Source: Cercospora beticola | Lineage: Eukaryota > Ascomycota > Dothideomycetes > Mycosphaerellales > Mycosphaerellaceae | Assembly (NCBI RefSeq): GCF_033473495.1 | Contig: NC_088939.1 | Span: 1,054,001-1,118,000 of the forward strand | Direction: 5' to 3' | DNA: 64,000 nucleotides | Part shown: positions 7,344 to 10,215 of the stretch, in pieces | How positions within the stretch are numbered: the first letter of the stretch is position 1 | Layout: every line of letters starts with the position of its first letter | The notes under the pieces: model-generated | Told to the model about the DNA's origin: nothing | The model's database searches: none | The model's input: only the letters and a program-made list of their open reading frames with translations | Position numbers and translations under genes: made by a program

Positions 7344-8171
7344 AGATGCTGTGAGACACTGTCTCCGCACGTCAGCCCCAAATATGCTCTCTTCCACCCA
7401 CACTGCAGCGATGGCATTCTTTTATTGCTCTGTGATTACAGCATTACTTCGACCACGGTGCCATTCTTTGCGTCAAAGGCAATCATCAGCGGCCCAACAG
7501 AGCTGAGAAAAAAAGGCCGGCAATAGCTTCAGTCTGTCCGCCATGGACAGCATAATTAATTATAGACGCTGCTCGGAGTAGCGCGCAGACTTACTTGCTT
7601 CGAGATAGATGCCGCAGCAGTGAGTGTAATCTGCTTCTGATGCTCCTCCGTAAGGACGCGTATTGCATCGTGTCTGCTGTCGTCTCGGCCATGCAGACCA
7701 ATGCTCAACAGCATGAATTCTCATGGCATCGCTTTACAAATTTTCGATCGTTGTCAATTTTGCTACGAAGATGTTCCCTCAATGCGGCCTGCGTCATGCT
7801 TTCCATGTGTCCGAGTACATAACTTCACGTCAGCGTTGTCGAGCTACTTTGTGTTAACGACTCGTCGCGCATGCAATCCTTCGATTCATAGAGCATTGCA
7901 CACCCTCGTCGGGGCGATGGATGGAATATCCGCTTGATACCCAAGATGCATGAAGATTCCGCTGGAGTCTTTTCCGAAGTTGTCGGAAACAGCACGCCAT
8001 TGACGCCGTCCTCGGCAGCAGCCCCGCTCGAGCTCCTCTTCACCAACCAAGACCCCCATGGCGCAAGCATTGGGGGCTATCGAATTCAGGCGCATCTATC
8101 TCCCGACGTAGCAAATCTCAGTCATCCTGCTAGAGCAAAACCTGTCAAGATAAGCCAGCTCACCTCTCTTT
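7344..8171. other. Intergenic, nothing supported
   Basis: 3' flank of the zinc-knuckle gene and promoter of the SDR at 8172. It contains an AT palindrome (TAATTAATTA near 7553-7562). Several short frames lack family resemblance. Confidence 0.4.
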
Positions 8172-9148
8172 ATGAGTTTCTTCCAGCCCAAACACTTCCT
8201 CCGCACACTGAACAGCTTCGCGAAAGCACAATCCGCGACCTCTATCCTCACTCGAGCTACGACACGAAATATGGCTACTGCTATGGGAAAACGCCTTGAA
8301 GGCAAGACAATTGTTATCACGGGAGCTTCTTCTGGCATTGGGAAAGCCACCGCGCAAGAGTTCGCTCGCACGTCGCCGAAGAACCTCAAGATCGTCCTTA
8401 CAGCTCGCCGAGTCGATGCACTGAAGCAATTGGCAGCGGATATCAACAAGGAAGTAGGAGATGGCGTAAAAGTGCTGCCCGTCCAACTAGACGTCAGCAA
8501 GCCAGAGGAAGTGAAGCAATTCATCCCAAACCTGCCACAAGAATTCCAGGACATTGATGTCCTGGTCAACAACGCTGGACTCGTGAAGGGCGTGGACAAA
8601 GCAGGCGAGATCAAGGACGAGGACATTACTGTGCAATTTGCGACAAACGTGACAGGTCTGATCAACATGACGCAAGAAGTCCTCAAGGTCATGAAGAAGA
8701 AGGGAGAGTCCGGAGCAGGAGATATCATCAATATTGGATCGATCGCTGGTCGTGAACCATACCCCGGAGGAAGCATTTACTGCGCTACGAAAGCTGCTGT
8801 GCGATCCTTCACAGATGCTATGCGGAAAGAGTTGATCGCGACGAGGATAAGGGTTATCGAGATCGATCCTGGTCAGGTGGAGACGGAGTTCTCGGTCGTG
8901 CGATTCTATGGTGATAAGGAGAAGGCCGATGCTGTATACAAGGGTGTCACGCCTTTGACACCAGATGATATTGCTGAGACGATTGTGTTCTCCGCTGGGA
9001 GACCTGAGAATGTGGTCATCGCTGACCTGCTCGTGTTCCCTAACCACCAGGTAAGTTTTAACAAACTTTAAAACCGCTTTGGTAGCCTCAAGCATCATGC
9101 TGACTGTATGCATAGGCGGCTGCTACAGTCATGCACAGGCGATCGTAG
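8172..9148 (+). CDS. NADP-dependent SDR, YMR226C/YdfG type, with alternative last exons
   Basis: Exon 1 (8172-9050) carries 293 codons: TGASSGIG at residues 50-57, NNAG, and the catalytic YCATK with Tyr203 and Lys207. This fits the YMR226C/YdfG family, which oxidises L-allo-threonine, serine and related 3-hydroxy acids. The first ~35 residues are rich in Arg, Ser and Phe with no acidic residue, like a mitochondrial presequence; MATAMGKRL at residue 34 is an alternative start. After codon 293 a GTAAGT donor can join two acceptors in the same phase. The acceptor at 9115 gives a 10-residue end, AAATVMHRRS (stop 9146-9148). The acceptor at 9176 gives AGAGILHRKPSSKI (stop 9219-9221). Reading through the donor gives VSFNKL. 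The enzyme call is firm; isoform use is inferred. Confidence 0.9.
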
Positions 9149-9221
9149 ACGTTCTGTTTCTGACATGTGTTTATAGGCTGGTGCAGGTATACTGCACAGG
9201 AAACCATCTTCAAAGATTTAG
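9116..9221 (+). other. Two competing terminal exons of the SDR gene
   Basis: Exon 2a is 9116-9148 and exon 2b is 9177-9221. Both follow CTGAC/TGACA-like branch points and TAG acceptors, and both keep phase 0 with the donor at 9051. The encoded ends resemble each other (A-[AG]-A-[TG]-[VI]-[ML]-H-R-[RK]), so one may be a copy of the other. Exon 2b ends in SKI, a permitted variant of the peroxisomal PTS1 tripeptide. Confidence 0.6.
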
Positions 9222-9609
9222 AAGTGTATATACCTCTTTCAACCTGGAGCACTTCTCCTGATTCTCTTCCAAGTCTTGATCTGGTGCTGGTACTGGTGCT
9301 CAGTATGTTTGTGGTGCCTGAGGCCATAGCGGAAAGCTTCACTCGGCCGGACCCACTTTTTCTTCTCCTAACGTCCGTGCGCACATCGAAAAACCACCCA
9401 ACACAGCGCACGCTGCACCGCAGCCACTGAACCAAGTGCAGCACAATGACGGAATGTATCGGAAAGACAGCAGAGAACTGGGCAAGATGTATTCAGATAC
9501 CTCAAGGCCACCAAAAAGTGGGCCCGCAAGCCAAGCCTCTCCGCTATGGTAAAACATCAATTCTTGCAACATATACCATACCAAAATAAAAGACAAGGCA
9601 CTAAGGAAA
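9222..9609. other. Intergenic
   Basis: 3' flank of the SDR gene. Nothing recognised apart from the tRNA-like element that follows. Confidence 0.4.
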
Positions 9610-9693
9610 AGCTCTCCACCCGGGTCGAACGAGTGACCTTAGGATATCTTGCATTGACTGCAATCCCACGCTCTACCACTGAGCTAGAACTGT
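9610..9693 (-). tRNA. tRNA-Cys (GCA), intron-containing, acceptor stem damaged
   Basis: On the minus strand the D arm TAGCTCAGTGGTAGAGC (A box) is intact. The anticodon stem TGGGA/TCCTA closes a loop with GCA, interrupted one base 3' of the anticodon by a ~12-nt intron. The T arm is ACTCG-TTCGACC-CGGGT (B box). The 3' acceptor strand GGAGAGC is followed by T, the discriminator base expected for tRNA-Cys, and then a TTTT polymerase III terminator. The 5' strand ACAGTTC pairs poorly with GGAGAGC (about four of seven positions, one of them a wobble). It is either a tRNA pseudogene or a copy whose 5' end was replaced. Internal promoters look usable. Confidence 0.6.
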
Positions 9694-10215
9694 GGAATGT
9701 AAGCGTGTGTATGCGCAAATGATGTTTTGTTTGGGCCAACTTACGAGCACGTGATCCATGCTCCCGGAATTGATCGACCGTATATGACCGTCAATTGAGA
9801 GATATACAGCAGGCCCTGGGCATAGGATGCGTCTTGGTCTCTACTGGCAGTGAGTTCCACTGTGCGAAATGAAAGTCGGCAACAGCGTTTCGAAATTGCC
9901 GCCTTTTGGAGGAAGGAAGCACATCTCTTCGGAATAGAGTTCTGACGCTCAAACATTCCGAGGTTGTTTGAGTTCTTCTAAGCATCCCTCGGCGTCCATG
10001 AAAATTCCTGGAAATCGCGGCTACAGCAAGTGAACATAGAATGCTTTTGGTGTGCGTAATGAGCTTGTGAAAGGTGTCGAACGAGGGTTGAGCTCAGCAG
10101 TGCTGGCGCATGTATAGTTCCGGTTCATCTTGAGAGAAAATATACTGGAGAATAACTATACGCAGCCAACCTGTGAGCAAATATCCCCGAGCATTGATCA
10201 AATTGTCACGCTCCT
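9694..10215. other. Intergenic, nothing supported
   Basis: 5' flank of the tRNA-like element and 3' flank of the POLD3 gene. No open frame resembles a known protein. Confidence 0.4.

Follow-up and report, generated by a model that had tools for sequence, protein, structure and literature searches.

A tandem pair of last exons may let splicing add a peroxisomal targeting signal to a short-chain dehydrogenase in Cercospora beticola and related fungi

We found that the gene for a short-chain dehydrogenase (SDR) in Cercospora beticola (8172-9221, + strand, of the window, the 64,000-nucleotide stretch of DNA analyzed) offers two predicted in-phase splice outcomes from a single donor, one of which ends in a tripeptide resembling the peroxisomal targeting signal PTS1. 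We consider it highly probable that tandem last exons, competing 3′ splice sites, and two starts share this enzyme among mitochondria, cytosol, and peroxisomes. In the proposed mechanism, use of the near acceptor (9115) would give a tail without a peroxisomal signal, and use of the far acceptor (9176) would place SKI at the C terminus, as a PTS1 to be read by Pex5. Independently of splicing, the upstream start would add a presequence that the internal ATG at 8271 would omit, and the choices of start and splice site could together place the same enzyme in all three compartments. A likely use would be the oxidation or reduction of small 3-hydroxy acids in the peroxisome, by which NADP(H) equivalents would be exchanged with the cytosol. 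What we infer is RNA-level use of both acceptors, import directed by SKI, a presequence function for the N-terminal extension, and this redox-shuttle role, the last from the NADP-dependent yeast and Escherichia coli members of the enzyme's family. Many relatives appear to keep both exons, so splicing probably sends the enzyme to different compartments. The initial annotation had raised splicing as a compartment switch for this metabolic enzyme, and the idea was upheld computationally, at the level of sequence. Coordinates are collected in Table 1.

Table 1. Predicted features of the C. beticola SDR gene (window coordinates)
Feature	Position	Strand	Remarks
Main coding exon, common to both isoforms	8172..9050	+	Inside ORF 8154-9071; YMR226C/YdfG-like SDR
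N-terminal extension, 33 residues, mitochondrial-presequence-like	8172..8270	+	5 K/R, no D/E
Internal start Met (MATAMGKRLEGK), form without extension	8271..8273	+	Start of C. beticola record P0003 (274 aa)
5′ splice donor GTAAGT, serves both splice forms	9051..9056	+	Sequence
Branch-point motif CTGAC for acceptor A	9100..9104	+	Starts 16 nt before acceptor end
3′ splice acceptor A (CATAG)	9114..9115	+	End annotated in C. kikuchii P0002
Exon A, AAATVMHRRS then stop, without PTS1	9116..9148	+	Phase 0; A-type exon fits 62/62 unspliced relatives
Branch-point motif CTGAC for acceptor B	9160..9164	+	Starts 17 nt before acceptor end
3′ splice acceptor B (TATAG), 61 nt past acceptor A	9175..9176	+	End used in C. 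beticola P0001, P0003
Exon B, AGAGILHRKPSSKI then stop	9177..9221	+	Phase 0; second exon fits relatives
PTS1-like tripeptide SKI, directly before stop codon	9210..9218	+	Relatives' second exons: SKL, SKM, SKI, AKI, AKL, TKM among others

The top solved-structure match of the encoded protein was yeast YMR226C (3rku; E 9.1e-84), and the top NCBIfam model was YdfG, at 195.8 bits and thus below the curated cutoff of 411. The protein contains TGASSGIG, which we take to be the Rossmann motif TGxxxGIG, and N159, S190, Y203, and K207, presumably the N-S-Y-K catalytic residues. By homology, we assign the gene to the NADP-dependent 3-hydroxy-acid dehydrogenases that include yeast YMR226C and E. coli YdfG. 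Both of these enzymes are described as NADP-dependent, with serine and other 3-hydroxy acids among their substrates (Fujisawa et al. 2003, as cited in passages of PMC11213811 and PMC10881976), an activity that the C. beticola enzyme may, as a homolog, share. A search of the 36-Mb assembly (10 contigs) for paralogs returned no close peroxisomal one; besides the gene itself, the sole genome match at E 1e-20 was only 33% identical, and we rejected a separate peroxisomal paralog on that account. Among prokaryote contigs 8 bacterial homologs were matched and left out of the comparisons below, among viral contigs none was found, and a tRNA looked for at 9300-9900 was likewise not found.

The initial annotation had proposed that one GTAAGT donor (9051) can pair with either of two acceptors and that only the second end carries SKI. 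Both points were confirmed: each acceptor continues in phase 0 and is preceded by CTGAC, and exon A ends in RRS and exon B in SKI. The 210 bases between 9051 and 9260 contain 14 AG sites, of which, by eye, only these two yield a family-like C terminus. Over their first nine residues, the two exons align with a BLOSUM62 score of 26, which was reached by 6e-5 of 100,000 permutations. This likeness beyond permutation, on a short stretch, supports a tandem duplication of the last exon as the origin of the pair, much as had been suspected. A passage in PMC12316961 describes SKI as the working PTS1 of Hansenula polymorpha catalase, with an affinity for Pex5 8-fold lower than that of SKL, and eGFP-SKL is reported in Zymoseptoria tritici peroxisomes in a passage of PMC5536155.

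Retention of the intron would produce a further end, ...VSFNKL, to which the initial annotation had also drawn attention. The end exists in the translated window, but it is not conserved among the relatives seen: in 63 retained frames we found no counterpart, and the three that stop soon after the donor (P0055, P0107, and P0153) end in SFS, LLL, and CRV. We therefore rejected NKL as a signal; it looks like a product of chance and is best dropped.

Relatives were compared through protein records comprising the best 120 of 7999 matches, all 78 of 78, and the best 120 of 739, which gave 265 distinct records and do not amount to a survey. An N-terminal extension of the C. beticola kind was seen in 121 of the 265 (114 short records and 30 without the anchor motif were left out); some of these extended records are ORF calls, whose first residue need not be the true start. 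K/R outnumber D/E in all 121, 102 have no acidic residue at all, and in every one a Met lies no more than nine residues ahead of the KRLEGK-type anchor. In the predicted structure, most of the core is confident, and confidence is low at residues 1-34 and 288-298 (pLDDT <50 for 288-298); a tail of this sort would suit an accessible PTS1, and residues 1-34 likewise would suit a removable signal. Judged by its composition, the extension would be a mitochondrial-type presequence. The mitochondrial-like N terminus of the initial annotation was upheld computationally as a basic, acid-poor, and conserved extension with an internal Met.

We then decoded relatives that are represented by unspliced frames. 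These were 60 long ORFs that run through the intron and are apparently metagenomic, plus 2 Diplodia records, 62 in all; for each, we considered the codons able to give the wrong-frame protein and asked whether the true frame fits. Exon A fitted 62 of 62 decoded records, a fit made without a shuffle control. For exon B we required a YAG acceptor, a core of the conserved type, and [SAT]K[LMI] directly before the stop; such an exon fitted 54 of the 57 records in which 100 nt or more follow exon A (the five shorter ones, P0006, P0019, P0149, P0171, and P0173, were set aside), compared with 5 of 1140 residue shuffles. The three records that an exon B with PTS1 did not fit were P0034, P0035, and P0057. 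When nine other tripeptide classes were placed at the end of exon B, between 4 and 27 of the 57 fitted, with the control classes [LMI]K[SAT] and [VPG]K[LMI] at 27/57 and 20/57.

The decoding rule was tuned over three rounds after the data had been seen. Under the first rule, with a narrow exon A, exon A fitted 43/60 and exon B 25/43 (shuffles, 10/430), and exon B was sometimes taken for exon A; an end-only version fitted 26, with shuffles at 41/430. The second rule fitted exon A in 62/62 and exon B in 50/62 (shuffles, 22/1240, 3 of which scored at least as high as the real frame). In the final rule, the position after the H/Y-R/K core was freed, shorter linkers were allowed, and the H/Y position and the search span were narrowed. 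Because decoding through degenerate codons is permissive, fits to single ORFs are overstated; the evidential weight lies in the contrast with the shuffles and the other tripeptides, both of which were run under the final rule.

A fitting exon B was present in at least one member of all 19 body clusters at 90% identity and of all 37 at 97%, the two acceptors lie 50-70 nt apart in the 54 decoded relatives, and a CTRAY branch point can be accommodated upstream of exon B in 54/54 of them vs. 857/2700 shuffles. In a comparison with 32 hand-picked named records (a list that runs to P0160), the nearest named relatives of the decoded ORFs included Cladosporium, the largest group, Cercospora, Pseudocercospora, Zymoseptoria, Hortaea, Salinomyces, Vermiconidia, and Acidomyces, which places the ORFs closest to Cladosporium, Mycosphaerellaceae, and Teratosphaeriaceae. 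The initial annotation had staked its case on the second exon and its SKI-type end not being absent from all close relatives; in the protein records, they are not absent, and relatives that fall closest to Cercospora, Zymoseptoria, Cladosporium, and Teratosphaeriaceae genera can be fitted with a second exon that has a PTS1 end. A putative PTS1-bearing alternative end is, in these translations, conserved in relatives.

Annotated proteins show both ends. The two C. beticola records, P0001 (307 aa) and P0003 (274 aa), both end in SKI, P0001 being 100% identical to the spliced B-form protein, and C. kikuchii P0002 has end A (RRS) on a body 97.6% identical. A passage in PMC8496228 states that the C. 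kikuchii gene models were made by BRAKER2 with protein hints, and annotated ends are for this reason weak evidence of use. Opposite ends also occur on near-identical bodies: in Macrophomina, P0165 (B, NKM) and P0265 (A) are 100% identical over 260 residues; in Friedmanniomyces endolithicus, P0068 and P0089 are 99.6% identical; and in Friedmanniomyces simplex, P0079 (B) and P0069 (A) are 98.5% identical. The F. endolithicus tails, GAATVMHRRT and GAATVMHRKPVAQSSKM, make the proposed tandem duplication of the last exon clearer. A/B pairs were found as well in Meristemomyces (P0081/P0113; 93% identical) and Elasticomyces (P0178/P0084), the latter not one gene, given 74% identity. In Diplodia seriata (P0171) and D. 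intermedia (P0173), the models retain the intron and end in TKM and TKV; each has an exon-A-compatible stretch in a shifted frame and then exon B in frame, which suggests that both exons may lie within one gene.

Among the matches listed, 16 of 197 short spliced-type tails end in [SAT][KR][LMI], and 181 of 197 have no PTS1-like end. The 16 come from C. beticola (2), Zymoseptoria, Recurvomyces, Friedmanniomyces (2), Meristemomyces, Teratosphaeriaceae sp., Diplodia (2), Lasiodiplodia, Elasticomyces (2), Lepraria, Xylographa, and 1 unnamed source. B-type tails without PTS1 include those of Elsinoe (PKI), Macrophomina (NKM), Lophiotrema (KKL), and Botryotinia (KKS), others ending in LKK or EKL, and many in KKPS, KKS, or similar; the Botryosphaeriaceae records have the near-PTS1 ends TKM or NKM. 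The families named here for the genera of the records, including Botryosphaeriaceae and Teratosphaeriaceae, are those to which we presume they belong. Two observations came from other classes. In Hyaloscypha (Leotiomycetes), P0181 and P0111, which come from two species and are 96.5% identical in body, have one an A tail and the other a B-like tail. In Cladonia (Lecanoromycetes), the tail of P0193, AAAT+AGTGGAMYKRPS, looks as if the beginning of an A exon had been spliced to a B core, without PTS1. Both are hints, from which the exon pair may predate the PTS1 signal.

Tails of this kind bear on an alternative in which both splice forms are made and the exchange of tails serves a role other than import, such as tetramer contacts or stability, the PTS1-like end being weak or incidental. 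We regard this as improbable. B-type cores without PTS1 (AGTGGAMYKK...) do occur in many records that we take to be from Leotiomycetes and lichen-formers, and the Hyaloscypha bodies indicate that an exon pair may exist without the signal, but the preference of the decoded frames for [SAT]K[LMI] over the nine other tripeptide classes is what would be expected of a PTS1 and not of a generic tail. Still less likely, in our judgment, is that exon A alone is used, exon B being a leftover or a product of noisy splicing. Exon A does come first, and there are many short tails lacking a PTS1-like end, mostly from species that may or may not have an exon B; a relic, however, would hardly have preserved all of its features (acceptor, branch point, reading phase, core, and PTS1) in 19 body clusters, and the B end was the one chosen in two C. 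beticola records.

As a control for chance, we located 105 CTRAY-plus-YAG sites in the window, counting both strands; 40 of these lead into a stop-terminated frame of 4-25 codons. One of these 40 candidate exons ends in [SA]K[LMI] before the stop, and two, the same one included, end in [SAC][KRH][LMI]; since exon B meets the strict pattern, the single strict match should be exon B, which leaves none among the other 39. That the arrangement is an accident of one genome or an artifact of gene prediction is scarcely credible: the stretch is short and AG is common in it, which would favor chance, but just one of the comparable window exons ends in this way and the fit in relatives is far above that of shuffles.

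We therefore favor the sharing of the enzyme among compartments through splice and start choice. A broader form of this reading holds that the two last exons go back to an ancient tandem duplication reaching beyond Dothideomycetes, that the second of them gained its PTS1 afterward, and that, with the two starts, four forms in three compartments make this an NADP(H) shuttle enzyme in a whole fungal class. We offer that version tentatively and judge its chances to be somewhat short of even.

The initial annotation knew of no report for this enzyme family, and we found none connecting a YMR226C/YdfG-type enzyme with peroxisomal splicing in the passages returned from the open-licence PMC literature searched. 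A genome-wide study of splicing in two isolates of Cladosporium fulvum reports 41 and 48 SDR-domain genes with alternative splicing, and "peroxisom-" occurs in it twice, both times in references (PMC11694984). Elsewhere in the C. beticola genome, the PGK gene (L012, G000:C1, minus strand; stop codon at L012 1462-1464) reads ...SALSAKS, TGA, then IQGSRL in frame and a stop, and a readthrough PTS1 (SRL) is possible there; simple readthrough of GAPDH ends in RPQ, with no PTS1.

If the proposed sharing is true, a non-glycolytic, NADP-linked enzyme joins the short list of fungal proteins targeted to peroxisomes by splicing, and its conservation makes the case testable in ordinary laboratory fungi. 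Gene models with one end per gene can hide the PTS1 form, as in the C. kikuchii record. The case would also bear on NADP(H) exchange between peroxisomes and other parts of the cell, and on last-exon duplication as a route to an optional targeting signal.

Several known systems resemble this one in part. Saccharomyces cerevisiae YMR226C (Ora1) and E. coli YdfG belong to the same enzyme family, and we know of no splicing or PTS1 for the yeast enzyme. In the NADP-isocitrate dehydrogenase of Aspergillus nidulans, the PTS1 is constant. There, as proposed for the C. beticola SDR, one gene serves three compartments with an NADP-linked enzyme, but it does so through alternative transcription starts, whereas splicing would make the PTS1 optional in C. 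beticola (Szewczyk et al. 2001, as cited in a passage of PMC3798809). Yarrowia lipolytica likewise makes isoforms of malate dehydrogenase, one of them with a PTS1, from a single gene by splice choice; the alternative introns are four nucleotides different in length (Kabran et al. 2012, as cited in a passage of PMC3798809), whereas the C. beticola acceptors are 61 nt apart and each leads to its own exon and stop.

The precedent invoked by the initial annotation, in which splicing exposes a PTS1 in fungi, is borne out by passages of PMC3798809 that list peroxisomal forms of GAPDH, PGK, and MDH made by alternative splicing. Cryptic PTS1 signals arise in this way in Ustilago maydis GAPDH and A. 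nidulans PGK (Freitag et al. 2012, as cited in passages of PMC3798809 and PMC12316961). Like these, the C. beticola gene would use splicing to add to an otherwise cytosolic enzyme a PTS1 that the default gene model hides. It differs from them in enzyme family, being of the YMR226C/YdfG type. Its alternative end lies on a second last exon similar to the first one, and it has a presequence-like N terminus with an internal start. Within the known kind of splicing-made PTS1, this would be a case with a tandem-exon design and wide conservation.
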